Below are positions 23,262-47,206 of a DNA stretch of 53,590 nt, piece after piece. How positions within the stretch are numbered: position 1 is the first letter of the stretch; every line of letters begins with the position of its first letter. Origin of the DNA: a virus; IMG/VR virus record IMGVR_UViG_3300046804_003838, positions 1 through 53,590 of that record; one strand, 5' to 3'. Made by a program: the position numbers and the translations under genes. The notes beneath the pieces were generated by a model. It had not been told where the DNA came from. It saw only the letters and a list, made by a program, of their open reading frames with translations, and did no database searches.

Positions 23262-23436
23262 TCTCCCACTCTTCCCATAATTCCTCTTGTTCCATTTCTT
23301 CGATTTTTGATCTATATTCTTTTTTGATTTTTTTAATATCTTTATAAGATTGATCTAAATCTTTAGAAGTTTTTTTCTTATTAGACAATTTTTCTCGACG
23401 GTAATTTTTTCTATCTTCAAAATCGTTGTTGTACAT
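23239..23436 (-). CDS. Highly charged small helical protein, 65 aa
   Basis: Very Lys/Glu/Arg-rich with coiled-coil character (YKDIKKIKKEYRSKIEEMEQEE). No motif. Preceded by the promoter at 23469-23496, so it may be expressed separately from the protease gene upstream. Confidence 0.5.
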   Translation of the reverse strand: MYNNDFEDRKNYRREKLSNKKKTSKDLDQSYKDIKKIKKEYRSKIEEMEQEELWEEWENEIHRRN

Positions 23437-23440
23437 ATAT

Positions 23441-24247
23441 CTATTTACTTGGTAGAGTATTCAACACTATTGTAGCAGAAGGGAGTTCGTTGTCAAGCCC
23501 CGACGTTTCAATTGAAATAATTTTTTCTATCCATTCGGCATGATCGCTAACTCTTGTGTGTCCAGATTCATCGGTATAAGAAGAGTTTGTTTTTTTATCA
23601 GACGCCATAACACATGAATTAATACCAGCTAATTTTTGAGATATAAATAATCCACCACCACTATCTCCGCTGGCAATTAAAAATTCTAAAGATGTTCTAT
23701 TTGCATCGTCTGGCTTGCATATCAATAATCCTTTATCTATATAATCTACAATATTTGATCCGGCTCTTCTTTGAGTATCCATATGAATAGCACCACTATC
23801 AAATGTTCCATATATACCAAAACCAGATATTGAAACTGTTTTACCTATTTCATCTTTTTCTTTATATAAATCTGGATAAAAATCTTGTTTCATATCTTCT
23901 GACGTAAACCCTACTGCTATGTCATTTAATCCAAAAATTTTTTCATCAAAATCTTTAGGAATAATAACTTTTGTAAGATGTATCTTATTATTGTCTAGGA
24001 CCACATAACATTCTTGACTATTAGATATAACATGTGCTGCTGTCAATATAACTTTTGGTTTAATTATTACAGAAGATGCTTCATAATATTGATTATCTTT
24101 ATATTTTCCAGCTAATTTAGCAACACATCTAAATTTTCTTCCATACTCAATATGTTTTGAGTCTGAAGTATTAGGATGTCGTGTTCCTCCAAGGACTATA
24201 CTATTTAAGACAAAAAATATACATAAAAATATTATTGATTGTCTCAT
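23441..24247 (-). CDS. Secreted trypsin-like (chymotrypsin-fold) serine protease
   Basis: Signal peptide (RQSIIFLCIFFVLNSIVLG) followed by the S1 triad: His72 in LTAAHVI, Asp109 in NDIAVGF, Ser196 in SGDSGGGLF. Start set at ATG 24247, which has AAGGA eight bases upstream; the GTG at 24262 is a weaker alternative. At 268 residues it is a stand-alone protease. It probably acts outside the cytoplasm on envelope or host surface proteins. Phage-encoded exported trypsin-like proteases are rare. The promoter at 23469 lies inside its 3' end. Confidence 0.85.
   Translation of the reverse strand: MRQSIIFLCIFFVLNSIVLGGTRHPNTSDSKHIEYGRKFRCVAKLAGKYKDNQYYEASSVIIKPKVILTAAHVISNSQECYVVLDNNKIHLTKVIIPKDFDEKIFGLNDIAVGFTSEDMKQDFYPDLYKEKDEIGKTVSISGFGIYGTFDSGAIHMDTQRRAGSNIVDYIDKGLLICKPDDANRTSLEFLIASGDSGGGLFISQKLAGINSCVMASDKKTNSSYTDESGHTRVSDHAEWIEKIISIETSGLDNELPSATIVLNTLPSK
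23469..23496 (-). promoter_or_regulatory. Sigma-70-like promoter inside the end of the trypsin-like gene
   Basis: -35 TTGACA (23496-23491), 16-base spacer, -10 TACAAT (23474-23469). It lies within the last 60 bases of the trypsin-like coding region and would fire the three small genes, the macro-domain gene and possibly the deoxyribosyltransferase-like gene. The spacer lacks GCCGAT. Confidence 0.6.
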
Positions 24248-24272
24248 TGTATGATCCTTCACATAGAAAGAC

Positions 24273-25274
24273 TTATAACACTTTTGACGCTATTAAGCAC
24301 CCCTTTGATACTGCATGAAGAGGATCTGCTGCGTGTTTTATCTCTTTGACAGATAATGGGAAATCATTTCCTTTTAGTTTTTCTTCAAATTTTTCTATAT
24401 AACCATTAGCCTGTGATGTTCCGCCAGCAACCACAATTTTTAATGGGTCTTTAAATTTTGGAAGTAATTTATGTCCTGTTAAAGCTGCACTTAATTGTTT
24501 TGTAGTATAATCTATTAATCTATCATAATAGGCTGAAACAGCCGCCAATACCGGATTTTCGTTGGGTTCGCCTATTTTAAAGTTGCCTCCCTCTTTCTCT
24601 GCCTGAACTACACTGTCTGGTTCTCCGGTGGCTACAGCACTCATACGATCAATCCAATCCCCAGACTTTGTTGTGCTAAAGACAACTGTGGGTTCTCCGT
24701 TTAACATAACGCATACGTTAGTCATACCAGCACCACAACTAATACCAATACCTGTATAATCTGTATCTTCTAATTCAGCATAGCATAGTGCTTCAGCCTC
24801 ATTAATTGCTTTGGCATCATAACCACATTCGGCTAAAATGGTTTTGACTACATCTTCGTGATATCCTACATCAAAATCTTCATCTTCTTGATCTACTGGT
24901 TGTGCAGGAACGCAAAATACTAATTTTTCATTTGGCTCAGATGCTTGACCGGCTACTTCTTTGAGGATAAATGCTAATATTCTTTTTGCGTCTTTTTCTT
25001 TTGCCGATACAACGCCCTTAAACATTGGTCTTTTTGCTGTATCATTTCTTTCTATGGCTTTTTCTATAGCGTCTTTACCCAAGAGAATGAATGAGCCGTC
25101 AGCGTCTTTAATAAAAACTTTGCCCGACAATCCTTTCTCTATCATTTTTGTAGCAACTGGGGTCGTTGGTTTGATGATATAAAAAGCATCTCTAAAATCT
25201 TTATAGACTATACCATCTTTAGCGTCTGAAGATAGAACTATAAAACTAGTGCCTACGTCTAAACCTTTTGCCAT
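24273..25274 (-). CDS. Actin-like ATPase (ParM/StbA/MreB superfamily)
   Basis: Phosphate-1 loop GLDVGTSFI (4-12), interdomain hinge INEAEALCYA (157-166), phosphate-2 loop GIGISCGAGMTN (175-186), and adenosine motif IVVAGGTSQANGY (280-292) identify the sugar-kinase/Hsp70/actin fold. The 333 residues fit a ParM-like filament protein. In phages, actin-like proteins segregate or position genomes. One base separates it from a membrane/coiled-coil gene, a possible partner. No ParR-like DNA-binding protein was recognised beside it. Confidence 0.85.
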   Translation of the reverse strand: MAKGLDVGTSFIVLSSDAKDGIVYKDFRDAFYIIKPTTPVATKMIEKGLSGKVFIKDADGSFILLGKDAIEKAIERNDTAKRPMFKGVVSAKEKDAKRILAFILKEVAGQASEPNEKLVFCVPAQPVDQEDEDFDVGYHEDVVKTILAECGYDAKAINEAEALCYAELEDTDYTGIGISCGAGMTNVCVMLNGEPTVVFSTTKSGDWIDRMSAVATGEPDSVVQAEKEGGNFKIGEPNENPVLAAVSAYYDRLIDYTTKQLSAALTGHKLLPKFKDPLKIVVAGGTSQANGYIEKFEEKLKGNDFPLSVKEIKHAADPLHAVSKGCLIASKVL

Positions 25275-25275
25275 A

Positions 25276-25596
25276 TTATCCTCTCATATTTTTTAATTTA
25301 TTAATTGCTGAAGATATTTGTTCAGAACTTTGTTTTGTTTCTCCAAGATTATCATATCTTTTTTGAAGATTATCCGTTTTTATATCTATAACAACTTTAG
25401 TAGAATCTATATCAATTTTTTTTGAGTTCTTATCCTGTTCTTGTGATTTATTCTTTGCAAAAAATGATTGGGACTGATTTTGACTATTATCATATACACC
25501 ATTGGTATTATTTAATCGACCTAAAATATAGCCAAAAACAAAAAACAGAATATTAAATAGTATTAATATTATATGAATTATATCTATAGTTATCAT
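25276..25596 (-). CDS. Membrane-anchored helical protein next to the actin-like gene, 106 aa
   Basis: Hydrophobic N-terminus of about 22 residues (IDIIHIILILFNILFFVFGYILG), then a polar, Asn/Gln/Lys-rich coiled tail. Located between RuvB (4-base overlap) and the actin-like ATPase (1-base gap). Candidate filament anchor or adaptor; inference from position only. Confidence 0.55.
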   Translation of the reverse strand: MITIDIIHIILILFNILFFVFGYILGRLNNTNGVYDNSQNQSQSFFAKNKSQEQDKNSKKIDIDSTKVVIDIKTDNLQKRYDNLGETKQSSEQISSAINKLKNMRG

Positions 25597-26483
25597 ATCT
25601 TACCCAATACTCTGCCTTTACTAGTTTTTTGAATAAAACCCTTTCTAAGAAGAAATGGCTCTATGCTATTTTCTATAGTATCAATTGCGATTCCTGTCAT
25701 TGATGAAATACTTTTTAGACCCAATGGATTACCAATATTCTTCTTCAGAATATTAATATATGCACGATCATAAATATCAAAACCATTTGAATCAATACCT
25801 TGAATATCAAATATCTCATCAATAGACATTGGATTCTTTTGAGTAAGTACACAATTTCTATACCATTGCAGTCTAGAATTTAAAATCCTGGGAGTACCCT
25901 TGCTTCTTTTAGCAATTTCTAATAGGTCATCTTCTGAAACATTTAGTCCGAACTTTTCGGCGTTCAATCCTGCTAGTTTTGCTAACTCACTGTCATTATA
26001 GAATGACAAATGTTCTTTAATAGAAAACCTGTCATAAAAAGGTTGACTCAAACTTCCTCCGCTTGTTGTCGCACCAACAAATGTAAACATTGGAAGTTCC
26101 ACGGTTTCCGGCTCTTCTTTACCAGATAGAGTTAAAACAAAATCCTCCATTACAGGATACAAAAATTCTTCTACAAGTTTTGGAAGTCTATGAATTTCAT
26201 CTATAAATAGAATAGACCTGGGAGCAATACCCATAAGATATGGAATAATATTTTTAGCACTTCTAATACTAGCAGCATTGAGTGTATATAGATTAACATT
26301 TAGTTCATTGGCAATAGCACTAGCAATAGTTGTCTTTCCAAGTCCAGGCGGTCCATCAATTAGAATGTGCGGAACAACACTGTTACTAATTTTACAACCA
26401 GAGATAATAATATTTAGTCTGTTGATGACATCTGATTGCCCAATAATATCCGAAAACTGTGTTGGCCTGATAGAATTTGTCAT
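25593..26483 (-). CDS. ruvB: RuvB-like Holliday junction branch-migration helicase
   Basis: AAA+ ATPase with Walker A GPPGLGKTT (44-52), Walker B ILFIDEIHRL (91-100), sensor-1-like FTFVGATT and YDRFSIKEHL, and the C-terminal winged-helix domain (IEPFLLRKGFIQKTSKGR). The 296 residues are shorter than the usual about 335, mainly at the N-terminus. RuvB normally needs RuvA and works with RuvC; neither was recognised here. Endonuclease VII (32764-33147) could resolve the junctions. A phage-borne RuvB is uncommon. Confidence 0.88.
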   Translation of the reverse strand: MTNSIRPTQFSDIIGQSDVINRLNIIISGCKISNSVVPHILIDGPPGLGKTTIASAIANELNVNLYTLNAASIRSAKNIIPYLMGIAPRSILFIDEIHRLPKLVEEFLYPVMEDFVLTLSGKEEPETVELPMFTFVGATTSGGSLSQPFYDRFSIKEHLSFYNDSELAKLAGLNAEKFGLNVSEDDLLEIAKRSKGTPRILNSRLQWYRNCVLTQKNPMSIDEIFDIQGIDSNGFDIYDRAYINILKKNIGNPLGLKSISSMTGIAIDTIENSIEPFLLRKGFIQKTSKGRVLGKI

Positions 26484-26494
26484 TTTTTCTCCAA

Positions 26495-26908
26495 TTATTT
26501 AATGTCTTTAATATCTTTAATCCAAAAAACAAAATCATTCTGATCTTCGTCGTATGCTGTCTCTACCAATCCTTTGTTTACCAAACCATGAAGTATATTG
26601 CTTACCATTCGGTCATTTAAAGAAGTAAGCATTTCCAAATATAAATTATCATTTATTAAAAAACGAATAGAGTTATTGTTTTTATGTTTTTGTTTTTTAA
26701 TGAAATCATCTATAATAGTTTTTGATTCATCAAATGATAATATTTTATCTATTTCTTCTATATCGTCTGGGTGAATACTAAAAGCCAATGAGTCAAAATC
26801 TTCTTCATCTTTATTTCTACCAAAATTATTAAATACTAATGCTCTGGTAGCGTTTATAAAATTATCTAAATCCTTGATTACAAACCAATCTTCATTTGTA
26901 GAACTCAT
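26495..26908 (-). CDS. Hypothetical protein with C-terminal YD..N.FVFW motif, 137 aa
   Basis: Acidic, with a C-terminal helix-turn-like region (LHGLVNKGLVETAYDEDQNDFVFW). The same LVxxAyDxxxNxxVFW pattern appears in the product of 39366-39776, suggesting distant paralogues. Could be a winged-helix-like DNA-binding or antirepressor-type protein, but not established. Confidence 0.5.
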   Translation of the reverse strand: MSSTNEDWFVIKDLDNFINATRALVFNNFGRNKDEEDFDSLAFSIHPDDIEEIDKILSFDESKTIIDDFIKKQKHKNNNSIRFLINDNLYLEMLTSLNDRMVSNILHGLVNKGLVETAYDEDQNDFVFWIKDIKDIK

Positions 26909-26916
26909 AATGTTTC

Positions 26917-27294
26917 CTAGTTAAGTATTTCGTACAATCCTTTGTAATATTTTGGCTGATATAAAAAATGGTTTGAATGAGATTGTAGATGTTTAATGTA
27001 TTCACTTTGTAATTTGTCGTGTACAAAGTGTTTCTTTTTCCACACTCCTTCGTTCCAATAGTTGTTCCCCAGATACAGGGAGGACGAATCCCCCGCTGTA
27101 TTGGAGAACCAACTATTCACAGGTAACGATTTGTATGGAAATCCTTCTACATTTTTTATTTCGTAATTGAACCCAGACTCTGATAATTTCTTGACTATTT
27201 GATCAATATACTTTCCTATCCATTCAGTATCAATTTGAAAAAAGAATTTATAAGGATCATCTGGAGCATCTTCATTATCATAAGGTTCGTGCAT
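26917..27294 (-). CDS. Hypothetical protein, 125 aa
   Basis: Start at ATG 27294 (MHEPYDNEDAP) is preferred; the frame from 27339 runs into the tRNA-like element. Aromatic and basic C-terminus (SNHFLYQPKYYKGLYEI). No motif recognised. Confidence 0.5.
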   Translation of the reverse strand: MHEPYDNEDAPDDPYKFFFQIDTEWIGKYIDQIVKKLSESGFNYEIKNVEGFPYKSLPVNSWFSNTAGDSSSLYLGNNYWNEGVWKKKHFVHDKLQSEYIKHLQSHSNHFLYQPKYYKGLYEILN

Positions 27295-27311
27295 ATAAAA
27301 CTTTCTAAAAT

Positions 27312-27396
27312 AGCGGGAGAGGAATCGAACCTCTCTCACATAGCGTTTGTCGAGTTTCCCAACCAGAGGCTATGATCTCAGTCACCAGACTCCACT
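27312..27396 (-). tRNA. tRNA-like element, isotype not assignable (possibly degenerate tRNA)
   Basis: Good T-arm (AGAGG TTCGATT CCTCT) and a 5-bp acceptor-like stem (AGTGG with CCGCT). The middle is not a normal tRNA. A 6-bp stem CATAGC/GCTATG encloses a 24-base loop, rather than 5 bp around 7 bases, and every U33 candidate fails to form an anticodon stem. It could be a tRNA pseudogene, a tRNA-like structure at the end of the rIIB transcript, or a tRNA with an insertion in the anticodon loop. It lies in the 71-base gap after rIIB. Confidence 0.45.
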
Positions 27397-27409
27397 TTCT
27401 TTTTAAGAC

Positions 27410-28282
27410 TCAGTTATAATCGTCGTAATCTTCTTCGTCATCATAATCTTCAGCATAAGCCTCATCATCTTCGTCATCGTTCCATCCCCAATCATAATCG
27501 TTGTTATACTCCTCTTCATCATCATCTTCATAATCCACACCGCCATCTAGACTAGCCGAATAAAGAGGCTTGAGAAGTTCGCCTTGATACTCTCCGACAA
27601 CTTCATATCGGCAAGTGCGAAGTTTCTCATAATTACAATCACTAGGAACACTAACAACATCACGAGGATTAATCTTAACAATAACAATCTTATCGCCAGC
27701 CTCAAGACTACCATAACCAGCAACATAGTTCAATGCACCAGCATGAAGTCCATTAGAACAACCTCTAGCACGATCATCGTCAACCTTTGATCGTGTCATT
27801 TCGCAAACATTTCCAACATGATTGTCGAAAACTCCACGATACTTATCCATATAATCATTCCTAACTGCCTTATAGGCAAGAAAATGACCATCCTCAGTAA
27901 TTGGCAGATGTTCATGCTCAAGGAAATCATAAAGTTCCTTCTGACTCTGCATACTAGGATTTTCCATAAGATTATTCAGGAATGTAACAAGGGGCTGGAA
28001 AGGTAGACCCTTGCTCATAAACTCCAGAATACGCTTACTGATACTACCATGAACAACTTCACCCTCATAAGTGACCTGTCCATTCTTAATCTCAACAAGA
28101 CCGTCACTAAATGCCGCGACTGCCTTTTCTACATCCACAATCTCCAGCAATTCATCAGATGTTGCAGTAGGCAGAGCCTCCAGAATCATCTTATAGTTAA
28201 TATGATCAGGCAGAACCTGATAACTCTTGTTGTTTAGAACAACCGTCAGATTACCATCAACAAACATAAACGGAACAGCCAT
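27410..28282 (-). CDS. rIIB: rIIB-like protein
   Basis: Follows rIIA and shares the family's core: ISKRILEFMSKGLPFQPLVTFLNNLMENPS, LYDFLEHEHLPITEDGHFLAYKAVR, then GLHAGALNYV and VVSVPSDCNYEKLRTCRYEV. The last 45 residues are almost all Asp/Glu/Tyr. In T4, rIIA and rIIB act together at the membrane to overcome lambda rex exclusion and to affect lysis timing; the biochemical role remains unclear. Start preceded by AAGGAG. Confidence 0.85.
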   Translation of the reverse strand: MAVPFMFVDGNLTVVLNNKSYQVLPDHINYKMILEALPTATSDELLEIVDVEKAVAAFSDGLVEIKNGQVTYEGEVVHGSISKRILEFMSKGLPFQPLVTFLNNLMENPSMQSQKELYDFLEHEHLPITEDGHFLAYKAVRNDYMDKYRGVFDNHVGNVCEMTRSKVDDDRARGCSNGLHAGALNYVAGYGSLEAGDKIVIVKINPRDVVSVPSDCNYEKLRTCRYEVVGEYQGELLKPLYSASLDGGVDYEDDDEEEYNNDYDWGWNDDEDDEAYAEDYDDEEDYDDYN

Positions 28283-28310: not shown

Positions 28311-30971
28311 TTACTTAATAAGACTACTCAACTGAATCTTGAACAGTTCAATCTGCTCATCATTCATACTTTCGACCCATATATTGCTACCCTTACCATA
28401 ATAATTATCAGCAAATTGAGAGATAGGATTATACTTGCTATCCAAATCTCTAAGATTGCCATTAATCTGGTTGCTTCCCATAATATACTTGATCATCGGG
28501 TTCCTGTCAACCTCGACTTTAAGATTTTTCTTGAGTTCTGCCATTTTGGTCAACTTATGCTTGATTGCTTTAGTCTCAGACTTAAACAATTTAACATACG
28601 ATTCAGCATCATCATGATGGGCAAACATCTCATGTTCAATCTTATTTACCAGAGTATTATACTGTACATTTTTCTTCTTGAGTTCCTTACTGTCAAGATT
28701 ATCAATGCCTCGATCCTTGAGCAAAGAGTTAATATGATCAAAATATTCAGTCTGAGAGAATCGCTTCAGATCAAAAGTTGCTCTGTGCATAGTATCAGCA
28801 AAGAATTCCATTACAAGAAAATTATCAATAACATTAGACAGTTCAGTATTCTTGATATATTTCTTATAGTCAAGACCAAAAATACTCAACATATGACAAG
28901 AAAATTGATTAACCAATGATCCGTGAATCCGATAATAGTTATGTTGATCATCATCTCTAGCAGCATACTCCTTTTTGTAGAATTCAACAATAGAGTTGTA
29001 TTCATTGGCACTATTGAAGTAGTCCTTAACATAAGTTGAAAGAATATTCTTTAGCCAAGTATTAAAGTCAGTAAGATTATATCCTTCATTTTGAAGTTTT
29101 GATACAAAATTACTCTTGATAGCATAAACCTTGACATTGCCAAATAGACTCTTGATATTTTCGTTACTAAACAATCCTACAATGTTACTAATCTTAGGAA
29201 ATTCTGGTGTGCTTTGATAACGCAAAATAGGAACGTAGATAATACTATCTTGGTCGATAAGTTCATCAAGTTCGTCACTCGTAAGAGTTTTCAGATTAAG
29301 AGCGTCATTATATTCTACACTAAGACTACCAGCATTTTTGGATGCTCCATTAATAAAGAATATATCTTGATCGCTAACACTACCCTTAGAATTTCTAACT
29401 CCAGTCTTTCTAGGCGAGTTGCTCTTAATCAAGTCCTTATAGTCGCTGACCTTCAGAATATTGTGACTACCAACATCTTCAATAAGTTTATCAAAACCCT
29501 CATTAGACTTTGAAATATCCTTACTGTCAATCATCAAGTAGGCAAAACAATCCTTCTCGTTACAATAACGAGTCACGATCTTCTTAGCGGTTTCTTCGCT
29601 CTTAATGTCACAAACAAAGAAAGCAAGTGGCCCAGTTTTACGCTGACTACTATAATAGTATTCACCCTTACCAGTAAGAGTATTATGGTGAAGATGATTG
29701 GTCATGTAAACCATGCGACGAGAACGATAGCCAGCACTTCTGTAGTTAAAAACATACAGAGCCTTTCCGGCAGGAATCTTATATTCAATATCCTCTCCGC
29801 TGTTGATATTGTGGGTCTTGCCATTACTATCGGTCCATGAAGCACCAACGCCCCATCCACCAGCAAGATCATTCAACTGATAATATGTACTGATTGCTTC
29901 GATTCTGGTTTTAGCAGCAGCAATCTTCTTGCTAAATTCTTCCTTCATCTCAAGATAAATACCCTGAGTCTTATCACGCAGGGCTTTAATGACAGCCTTG
30001 GTATACTGCAATCCTTCACGGGAAACATCCATCTCAAGTTCCCCGATACCAAAATCCAGTTCAAGATAAAGGTTCTGGTTAAGAATTTCTGTTACAAAAC
30101 TCTTCCAACTATCAATATCTGCCTTACCAAAGGCTCTATTCCACTTGGCAATATGCTCTGACTGTTCTACTTTTTGTTCTCCAACAAGTTGAGAGGCAAC
30201 AACAGGATACGCAATATTACCCATGAGAGCAACAATACCACTATCAATATGATGATATGTGCTAGGATAATGATTATGGTCATTAGAAAGTCGGCAGACC
30301 CTCCAACCTTCACCACTAATCACAATGTTCTTATTGCTATAAGCATGATCCTTGAGAGAAGGAATAACCCCACCTTCAATAATCGGCTTCATTCTAAAGT
30401 AATGAAAAATACGAATAGCCTTCTGACTAAATTCAGTAAAATCATACTGCTTAACAGCAAAACTAATCTCAAGACCATTAGGTTCGTCAGTTTCGCAGAC
30501 GTTAAACAGATTAAGAGTCGGCACACCATTATCATCAATGGCAGCAATATAAGTGTACTTTTGACCATTAAAATAAGAACTGGTCGTAAAACTCTTGGTA
30601 TAAGCAAAAGGACTCTTAGACCCTAGACCAAGACAACCAACAAAATCATTACTATCATTCTTGTTGGATGCACCATAGGTAGTGTAAAGGTTCTCCATAT
30701 CGGCCTGACTAAGACCAGTGCCGTAATCACGCACGATAAAATTCGGATTAGCAGCAGTAGGCAGCGTAACCTTAAAAGGATTCTTATTACCAGCACTAAT
30801 ATGACTGTCATAAGCATTGGTAGACAGTTCACGAATAACTGCCATCACCTTATCGGAATAAAGAGAGTCCGACAGAATCTTAAACATTTTGCTGGTTTGG
30901 GCAATCGTAAAACCCGACGCACTCTGAACACCAGCACTGTGAGTCTCAATAACACGGTCAGCCAACTTCAT
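28311..30971 (-). CDS. rIIA: rIIA-like GHKL-type ATPase
   Basis: N-box ELSTNAYDSH (48-57), G1 DYGTGLS (82-88) and G2 GCLGLGSKSPFAYT identify the GHKL (gyrase/Hsp90/MutL) ATPase fold in the first 150 residues. The 886-residue length and rIIB partner match T4-type rIIA, with a longer C-terminal region than T4's 725 residues. It is driven by the promoter at 31016-31043, with a leader of about 38 bases. Codons look less AT-rich than in neighbours. Confidence 0.88.
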   Translation of the reverse strand: MKLADRVIETHSAGVQSASGFTIAQTSKMFKILSDSLYSDKVMAVIRELSTNAYDSHISAGNKNPFKVTLPTAANPNFIVRDYGTGLSQADMENLYTTYGASNKNDSNDFVGCLGLGSKSPFAYTKSFTTSSYFNGQKYTYIAAIDDNGVPTLNLFNVCETDEPNGLEISFAVKQYDFTEFSQKAIRIFHYFRMKPIIEGGVIPSLKDHAYSNKNIVISGEGWRVCRLSNDHNHYPSTYHHIDSGIVALMGNIAYPVVASQLVGEQKVEQSEHIAKWNRAFGKADIDSWKSFVTEILNQNLYLELDFGIGELEMDVSREGLQYTKAVIKALRDKTQGIYLEMKEEFSKKIAAAKTRIEAISTYYQLNDLAGGWGVGASWTDSNGKTHNINSGEDIEYKIPAGKALYVFNYRSAGYRSRRMVYMTNHLHHNTLTGKGEYYYSSQRKTGPLAFFVCDIKSEETAKKIVTRYCNEKDCFAYLMIDSKDISKSNEGFDKLIEDVGSHNILKVSDYKDLIKSNSPRKTGVRNSKGSVSDQDIFFINGASKNAGSLSVEYNDALNLKTLTSDELDELIDQDSIIYVPILRYQSTPEFPKISNIVGLFSNENIKSLFGNVKVYAIKSNFVSKLQNEGYNLTDFNTWLKNILSTYVKDYFNSANEYNSIVEFYKKEYAARDDDQHNYYRIHGSLVNQFSCHMLSIFGLDYKKYIKNTELSNVIDNFLVMEFFADTMHRATFDLKRFSQTEYFDHINSLLKDRGIDNLDSKELKKKNVQYNTLVNKIEHEMFAHHDDAESYVKLFKSETKAIKHKLTKMAELKKNLKVEVDRNPMIKYIMGSNQINGNLRDLDSKYNPISQFADNYYGKGSNIWVESMNDEQIELFKIQLSSLIK

Positions 30972-38255: not shown

Positions 38256-38611
38256 TGGAGGCGAGGGGAGTCGAACCCCTGTCTTATCATAATCTCAAGA
38301 ATATCTTCTACAAGTTTATTTCATTCATAAATTAAACTAGAATATAGAACGAACAAGATTTTTCTAGTCTTACCAACTGCTCTTAACCTACAACCCGTTG
38401 GATATTGTAAGTGCAGAGGGATTTAACGACAGACTTTTGATTCCTACCCTCATTCGGTATCGCAGTCTGTTACTGCCCTTTTTTTGTCAGGCAGCAAGTG
38501 CTAACTGAGTTTCGCCAGTTAAAGCGTTTAATCGACTTTTAAAGTGGCCTGTCGATCAACCACTACTTGCTAATACAATCTTAATTATGTAATCGAATCC
38601 GTTACGCCCCC
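38256..38611 (-). ncRNA. ssrA: tmRNA (ssrA), complete
   Basis: 5' end GGGGGCG pairs with 3' CGCCTCC plus A over seven positions including a G3-U70 wobble, the alanyl-tRNA synthetase mark. T-arm AGGGG TTCGACT CCCCT is canonical. A tag-coding region ends ..GETQLALAA and TGA at 38487; the ..ALAA end is typical of proteolysis tags. The exact resume codon is uncertain, because GAU after the usual GUC-like site meets UAA; the coding frame requires CGA or UUA. The 356-nt length matches bacterial tmRNAs. It rescues stalled ribosomes. Confidence 0.93.
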
Positions 38612-39002: not shown

Positions 39003-39084
39003 ATATTGTTCTCATTAAAGGTAGGAGAGAAACAACCTTGCTTCTCTATAAGGAGGGACAATATGTATTACACCATTTGATAAA

Positions 39085-39158
39085 TAGGGCGTGTAGGAGT
39101 CGAACCTACCTTTTGAATACCTTATAAGAGTATGTGCAACTACCGGCTGCAACGCCCC
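39085..39158 (-). tRNA. tRNA-Ile(UAU)
   Basis: Acceptor GGGGCGT/ACGCCCT pairs (one G-U at the first position); anticodon arm ATACT CTTATAA GGTAT gives anticodon UAU; T-arm GTAGG TTCGACT CCTAC. Decodes AUA, a codon heavily used in this AT-rich genome. CCA is not encoded. Promoter at 39191-39218. Confidence 0.9.
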
Positions 39159-39190
39159 AAATTTTTAAAGATCAATCACCGTCTACCAGC

Positions 39191-46096: not shown

Positions 46097-47155
46097 TCAA
46101 TCAATATTTCCTAATACTTCTCCGTCATTAGGATCACACAATCTTCTAATAATGCTAACATCAGAATCACCGTTAATAGTTCGAACACTACCATCAGCAA
46201 ATCCTGCCATAGCCATATCGCCAGCATGAAAACTAAATGGCTCATCATTAGGGCCACAATTATTTGTTGTCCAAAGACAAGTAGTTGGGCCACCAATAGG
46301 ATTGCTATTATTGTTTACTATTTTTCTTCCATTTGTTACAGTTTCGGTATCTGGACTTCCACTAACTCCACTAGAATTATCTGGATCAGCCCATCTATTT
46401 GGAACAGTATTACCTGATGGAAATTCTGTGGCGTTTGCTGCTACCCAATTAGAATCTCCGGATTGAATATTAACTGCTTTTCCTCCTGCTGACCTAATCC
46501 AATTAGTATTTCCACCCAATTGAGTTTGTCTTTTACCAAGATGTTGAGTATTTCTTCCAGCATCTTCAAAAAATATGACAGTTTTGCTTGTACCATCTTT
46601 TGCATGAGATACTCTTGAAGATTGATCGTATGTTAACAATCCAGACTTATAAGAATTTCGTGTTGTTCCAGAAGCCTTATTTCTACTTCCATTAGTAGGA
46701 TGAAGGTCAGTATATGCTACTGGCATATAATCATTTGACCCATAATCGCCGCCAGTTTTAGCATCAGAATAAGGATTACTTGGACAATTAAAAGCGTTAA
46801 CCTTTGCTCCTGCTAAAGTTTTATTAGTTTGATGCCAATATGGTTTCTTTTTGTCCCAATTTGATGCTAGTGATGATTCTTCCATAAAACCTAATACTTG
46901 AACATGAAAAGACTCTACATTTAGGCAATCTTTTCCAATGCTAAAATCGAATCCTTCTCCGCTAGTTGGGTATCTGCTATTTGCACTTTCATAATTAGCG
47001 GCTGCTAATCCTATTTGTCGTACATTATTTGAACAGGCACTTCTTCGTGCTGCTTCTCTGGCCGATTGAACTGCTGGTAGGAGTAGTCCTATTAAAGTGG
47101 CTATAATAGCAATAACGACTAATAGTTCTACTAATGTAAACGCTTTTCTACTCAT
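46097..47155 (-). CDS. DUF1559 type IV pilin-like protein (planctomycete-type)
   Basis: Start at 47155 with AAGGA seven bases upstream; the frame before it (from 47206) is not sensible. The N-terminus [20 protein letters not shown] is a classic prepilin signal, followed by [35 protein letters not shown], and the C-terminal [21 protein letters not shown], the end box of DUF1559. 352 residues. Such genes form large families in Planctomycetota, and to a lesser degree other PVC bacteria. Two strong promoters lie upstream. It is very unusual in a phage. Confidence 0.93.
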
Positions 47156-47178
47156 TATAAATTCCTTTTTAGGCGGGA

Positions 47179-47206
47179 TGTATAGAATTCTGATTATATT
47201 TGTCAA
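47179..47206 (-). promoter_or_regulatory. Proximal promoter of the pseudopilin gene
   Basis: -35 TTGACA (47206-47201), 16-base spacer, -10 TATACA (47184-47179). Its spacer lacks the GCCGAT element. It is one of a tandem pair with 47208-47235. Confidence 0.7.

Follow-up and report, generated by a model that had tools for sequence, protein, structure and literature searches.

Volactin (VolA, HVO_2015) of Haloferax volcanii forms filaments that contact the membrane by their tips, and the factors that bind it have been described as as yet unknown (PMC10869688). In the ParM-ParR and crenactin-arcadin-2 systems, the C-terminal helix of ParR and of arcadin-2 binds the respective actin (PMC5173319). 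An actin encoded by a phage together with an adjoining partner gene is found in the Corynebacterium prophage CGP3, the pair being AlpC and AlpA. Large phages can also carry a cytoskeletal protein of their own, as the nucleus-forming jumbo phages do with their PhuZ tubulin spindle. ParR binds DNA, and AlpC presumably belongs to an actin family different from the one considered here.

Here we analyze a 53.6-kb virus record, referred to in its full length as the window, that encodes a volactin. The window actin shares the Pfam family of VolA, PF25216, over its whole length, is 34-37% identical to haloarchaeal volactins, and has their SxGxGMxN phosphate-2 loop. Archaeal volactins likewise have a membrane protein upstream (DUF7139 in L188 and L316, the two loci examined), with four transmembrane (TM) helices as against the single one of the phage protein. 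Unlike VolA, the window volactin is phage-borne, and a role in host shape is not expected of it. Its partner is a membrane protein, whereas AlpA is a DNA adaptor (PMC4446434), and the window volactin itself is an actin, whereas PhuZ is a tubulin; a tubulin homologue (PhuZ) was found in 0 of the 17 records searched, which may be fragments. Binding of the actin by the C-terminal helix of the partner is known for ParR and arcadin-2 and is what we infer for the phage, the likeness of the phage protein to these proteins, of which arcadin-2 depolymerizes filaments, being one of layout. The nearest solved structures, those of MamK, MreB, and BeeR, have the actin fold and are 14-20% identical to the window actin. 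The open-licence literature that we searched (preprints fell outside its scope) contained no phage-borne volactin, and a report may exist elsewhere.

Gene layout of the phage locus

The preliminary description of this locus had noted an actin-like ATPase, a small membrane protein, and RuvB encoded as one tightly joined group, and placement and junctions are exactly as it claimed, all three genes lying on the minus strand (Table 1). The RuvB and small-protein genes share the four bases ATGA (25593-25596), and a single base (25275) lies between the small-protein and actin genes. Such junctions are common in the compact window, so that taken alone they carry little weight. Upstream, the genes assigned by homology to RIIB and RIIA show a phage context, and the window further encodes a class II ribonucleotide reductase, PhoH, and a DNA ligase.

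Table 1. Features of the volactin locus (positions in the window)
Feature	Position	Strand	Remarks
Trypsin-like protease with N-terminal signal-like segment	23441..24262	-	Downstream neighbour; PF00089 E=2.4e-12
Volactin-family actin-like ATPase	24273..25274	-	333 aa; PF25216
Phosphate-2 loop SCGAGMTN, residues 179-186	24717..24740	-	Ser replaces Asp of MreB DIGGGTTE
Phosphate-1 loop DVGT, residues 6-9	25248..25259	-	D6, G8, and T9 invariant
Small membrane-anchored partner	25276..25596	-	106 aa; upstream of actin, hydrophobic N-terminus
Volactin-partner tail, residues 73-106	25279..25380	-	Clade alignment, cross-domain profiles
Predicted helix within tail, residues 94-105	25282-25317	-	AlphaFold2
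N-terminal transmembrane helix of partner, residues 2-30	25507..25593	-	AlphaFold2, hydropathy
RuvB-like branch-migration ATPase	25593..26483	-	296 aa; PF05496, PF17864, PF05491
RIIB	27410-28282	-	PHROGs E=4.9e-72; upstream of actin genes
RIIA	28311-30971	-	PHROGs E=6.3e-111; upstream of actin genes

Several other features of the window were observed. A phage-encoded tmRNA with the tag GETQLALAA lies at 38256-38611 (-), near a tRNA-Ile at 39084-39159, and a terminator-like hairpin, GAGAGGTTCGATTCCTCTC, at 27317-27335 (-) resembles a tRNA T-arm and is perhaps a tRNA remnant. Promoters and terminators were set aside as signals, the predictions being close to shuffle level, and matches to defence systems were generic or weak ones only. 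A DUF1559/SBP_bac_10 protein with a pilin-type N-terminus (46097-47206, -) gives a weak hint to the host, such proteins being common in Planctomycetota. A planctomycetal host is a possibility only: this gene is its sole support in the window, and the signal was seen in 0 of 27 relatives but was lacking in the control genomes as well, so that its absence speaks neither for nor against such a host.

Phage and cellular relatives of the actin

The window actin matches PF25216 (Volactin) with an E value of 1.5e-64 over residues 1-329, i.e., full length, and the match scores 218.9 bits against a curated cut-off of 35 and covers positions 1-320 of 321 of the profile; no PHROGs family matched convincingly. 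A scan of virus collections, which are metagenomic and whose records are fragments, yielded 285 stretches related to the actin, and the best 80 of these 285 are 83-100% identical to it, on contigs that reach 244 kb. Copies that are 35% and 34% identical occur in two phage records, of 485 and 595 kb respectively, and scans with these copies led to two further phage clades. In all, large uncultured phages of at least three clades carry volactin. Exactly one volactin match is present in each of 27 records (27/27). The Gp23 major capsid protein was found in 5/5 LR756511-type records, in 0/12 records of the window clade (possibly fragments), and not in the LR745208-type record.

A genome scan gave 364 matching stretches. 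The best 80 of these begin with three contigs resembling misbinned relatives of the window phage; next comes a single contig binned as Fermentibacteria, and after it Acidobacteriota, Omnitrophota, Planctomycetota, haloarchaea, and others, at 34-42% identity. PF25216 exceeds the cut-off in 75 of 199 sampled Planctomycetota genomes. In a quick tree, the window clade groups with the Fermentibacteria contig, a placement in which long branches may be joined falsely, and LR745208-type phages group with Planctomycetota and Omnitrophota. Because the phage clades are placed separately, phages probably acquired volactin more than once.

Some of these loci have further peculiarities. One LR745208-type actin ORF (L091:5968-8181) is 737 aa long and has an intein-like insert in the phosphate-2 loop (GSGMTN^C), with an HNH-like motif and a ...VHN^C junction. 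By eye, a large tail-sheath-like gene was seen near the actin in another locus of this type (L082:10974-15971), and cellular volactins were seen beside gas-vesicle GvpL/F- or GvpO-like genes (L216, L227, L228, L176, L177, and L179). In an Omnitrophota genome (G030, contig C11:154417-156831), volactin genes occur as a tandem pair. Beside LR756511-type actins (upstream in L095, L109, L128, L141, L148, L164, and L170) lie ORFs, or fragments, that resemble GIY-YIG homing endonucleases and that, as judged by eye, are sometimes situated between partner and actin.

The membrane-anchored partner

In each of the 54 distinct loci of the window clade (54/54), the gene immediately upstream of the actin is that of the small protein, with a gap of 1-78 bp (mostly 3-4), and the protein has a hydrophobic N-terminus in every one. 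This pairing is far beyond chance. Across these loci, identity to the window's proteins is 79-100% for the actin and 37-100% for the partner, in which the tail is kept. AlphaFold2 predicts a helix at residues 2-30 (mean pLDDT of 87-97 for each of the first three ten-residue blocks), and the remaining predicted structure is a short C-terminal helix (residues 94-105) only. The protein had been described as a membrane-coiled-coil protein; its membrane part is borne out by the N-terminal helix, but AlphaFold2 predicts no coiled coil. We also considered the C-terminal helix as specially amphipathic and dropped the idea, as 46% of shuffles scored equally high.

LR756511-type phages pair their actin with a different, tail-less, soluble protein of about 76 aa that ends in WAIPDF...KINFGK; the tail described below is therefore not obligatory in the Volactin family. 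This protein adjoins the actin in 67 of 79 readable loci and lies within 2.5 kb in the other 12. Its profile found nothing outside its own clade, and homology to the window-clade partner was rejected, since profile comparison finds none.

A C-terminal tail shared by volactin partners

Proteins encoded upstream of cellular volactins have bodies that look unrelated and ends that are similar. The same tail of about 34 residues that ends the window partner ends volactin neighbours in Planctomycetota, Omnitrophota, Chloroflexota, Acidobacteriota, and haloarchaea. Within the window, the partner is the sole ORF that bears it, as judged with a search profile that includes the window clade.

Cross-domain tests were carried out with disjoint training sets, and reversed and shuffled ORFs served as decoys. 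A bacterial-tail profile gave 22 matches at E<1 and no decoys among 3839 archaeal ORFs, 21 of the 22 lying close to the C-terminal end of the protein encoded next to the actin; among 7690 phage ORFs it gave nine matches, eight of them actin neighbours, again with no decoys. With an archaeal-tail profile, all four phage matches were actin neighbours (0 decoys), and 12 of 13 bacterial matches were neighbours (1 decoy). A phage-only profile was weak against bacterial ORFs, finding three neighbours at E<1 alongside two decoys, and had no match at E<1 among archaeal ORFs. A profile built from cellular tails alone was searched against 7628 phage ORFs, and its top 14 matches all fell in the gene that immediately precedes the actin; the window's own tail is absent among the matches listed, and members of its clade score 0.019 and up. 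In the reverse direction, the best match of a window-clade profile among 6398 cellular ORFs (E=0.06) fell in a gene immediately preceding a volactin, and several further volactin neighbours were among the top 20.

At new loci the tail was found at E<0.1 in 22 of 30 from Planctomycetota, which are not all independent because some of their tails duplicate, exactly or almost exactly, tails used for training, and in 8 of 30 from archaea; the same search found it in 0 of 29 MreB neighbourhoods. Where archaeal loci gave no tail match, a four-TM protein was often still encoded upstream. An iterated profile collected 177 tail-bearing ORFs, which fall into 10 body clusters with no detectable mutual similarity; 176 adjoin an actin on its strand (167 upstream and 9 downstream), and the remaining one is at a locus for which no actin was called. 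Coming from a trained profile, these counts are descriptive, and ORF calling in the high-GC loci was mechanical.

Actin positions 126, 128, 147, 150, 189, 197, 203, 249, and 256 separate the actins of tail-bearing loci from those of the tail-less clade, as do insertions after 149 and 152. Docking of the tail in a hydrophobic groove, the mode seen with ParM and crenactin, stays an analogy, as these positions show no obvious groove mapping.

A proposed two-gene cytoskeletal module

The best explanation for this locus, to which we assign a probability of roughly 60%, is that actin and partner form a two-gene phage cytoskeletal module in which the partner's tail docks on the actin and its helix tethers filaments to the membrane. 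The actin would bind nucleotide and polymerize, as its family and fold suggest. The partner would be held in the inner membrane via its N-terminal helix, and a disordered linker would present the conserved tail for docking, so that filaments, or their ends, become tethered to the membrane. During infection, anchored filaments may position the replicating phage genome, or particles under assembly, with respect to the membrane; these are the most likely cargo, and this is the least certain step. Across the Volactin family, the tail would serve as the recognition element, recruiting filaments to different places through the different bodies to which it is joined: one TM helix in the phage, a DUF7139 body with four TM helices in archaea, and soluble bodies in Planctomycetota and others. 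RuvB would be a neighbouring phage core gene outside the actin machine. The earlier suggestion that a small anchored protein could tether filaments is supported by the strict linkage and by the tail in common with cellular volactin partners.

The partner might instead regulate the actin, as a membrane-held depolymerizer or nucleator like arcadin-2 rather than a passive tether. The phage protein has the layout of arcadin-2, in which a disordered linker precedes a conserved C-terminal helix, and an arcadin-2 peptide depolymerizes crenactin (PMC5173319). Co-localization of the two phage genes could also mean regulation of the actin instead of anchoring. However, the membrane body common to the window clade and archaea fits anchoring, and with both functions fitting the present data we consider a regulatory partner possible and rather unlikely.

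In a DNA segregation or positioning cassette of the ParMRC or AlpAC type, the small protein would be a DNA adaptor joining the phage genome to filaments. The two-gene layout is that of the CGP3 prophage, with its actin-like AlpC and the co-transcribed DNA adaptor AlpA (PMC4446434). The partner has a membrane helix, though, and Pfam and PHROGs family searches and the AlphaFold2 model gave it no DNA-binding domain; action on DNA via another protein is conceivable. Nor are there parC- or alpS-like iterated repeats near the genes, a repeat search of 23300-27500 returning short two-copy pairs only and no centromere-like array, although such an array could lie outside this interval. Segregation, which the preliminary description had raised, is thus unsupported in this sense, and we regard such a cassette as improbable.

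Fold and active site of the actin

The AlphaFold2 model of the actin (pLDDT 92, pTM 0.90) speaks for an actin fold like that of MreB and MamK. When its Foldseek matches are ranked by E value, MamK comes first as the nonpolymerizing mutant A278D (TMq 0.57) and second as a filament (TMq 0.73); next come MreB structures and, in row 8, the BeeR filament (TMq 0.72), with DnaK and PilM lower. Fold similarity by itself is no demonstration of polymerization.

The window actin has the SxGxGMxN phosphate-2 signature found throughout its relatives. The Ser of this loop is present in 202 of 202 distinct family sequences, phage and cellular, and the Asp is kept by four of five aligned MreBs. As the Volactin family is without this Asp, hydrolysis may be altered; yet the Haloferax volactin is dynamic. 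This family-wide replacement, together with the membrane partner, the nonpolymerizing mutant in the top Foldseek row, and PilM and DnaK further down, would suit a membrane-recruited regulatory ATPase that forms no filaments, as is thought for PilM. Against that reading, which we consider very improbable, stand the filament structures of MamK and BeeR among the Foldseek matches and the polymerization in vivo of the Haloferax volactin, a member of the same family (PMC10869688). The original assignment of the protein as an actin-like filament protein is supported by family and predicted fold, which also suggest polymerization.

The RuvB neighbour

RuvB is domain complete, with RuvB_N (PF05496), the AAA lid (PF17864), and RuvB_C (PF05491) all above cut-off, and matches RuvB chains of the PDB at 4e-66 (phmmer). 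It is a core gene of the window clade, present in 16 of 16 long records at 3e-45 or better. Its gene lies upstream of the actin pair; of 53 distinct loci, 25 have it within 60 bp and 20 at 61-600 bp, and in the other 8 the distance is greater, up to 3.6 kb. A true RuvB was not found in the other actin-bearing phage clades, in which only the weak matches typical of other AAA ATPases were seen, nor, by eye, beside the cellular volactins inspected. RuvA was found in 0 of 27 records, and no RuvC scored over cut-off; the records may be fragments, and a host RuvA could serve. The proposal that actin, small protein, and RuvB act as one unit coupling recombination to genome positioning, which the junctions in the window and the conservation of RuvB had favoured, is very hard to credit with RuvB more than 60 bp away in 28 of the 53 loci and often separated by other genes, with no RuvA and no RuvC over cut-off found in these possibly fragmentary records, and with no true RuvB in other clades or beside the cellular volactins inspected. 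RuvB is often 0.1-3.6 kb away and is absent from the other clades, and its association with the actin pair is therefore one of neighbourhood and not of a unit.

Conclusions

What is newly found here is a tail of about 34 residues common to otherwise dissimilar volactin neighbours across phages, bacteria, and archaea. As far as sequence can tell, this points to a shared docking tail for the whole actin family. We incline, at slightly better than even odds, to the view that it is a general volactin docking element of Archaea, Bacteria, and phages, carried on at least 10 bodies, with multiple acquisitions by phages, two phage clades that use the tail, and DUF7139 as the anchor of archaeal volactin. 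The phage carriers belong to a family of uncultured bacterial viruses of very large size. The tail names testable candidate binders of volactin, namely, the phage partner, haloarchaeal DUF7139, and the upstream proteins of Planctomycetota, and the DUF7139 candidates belong to haloarchaea amenable to cultivation and modification.
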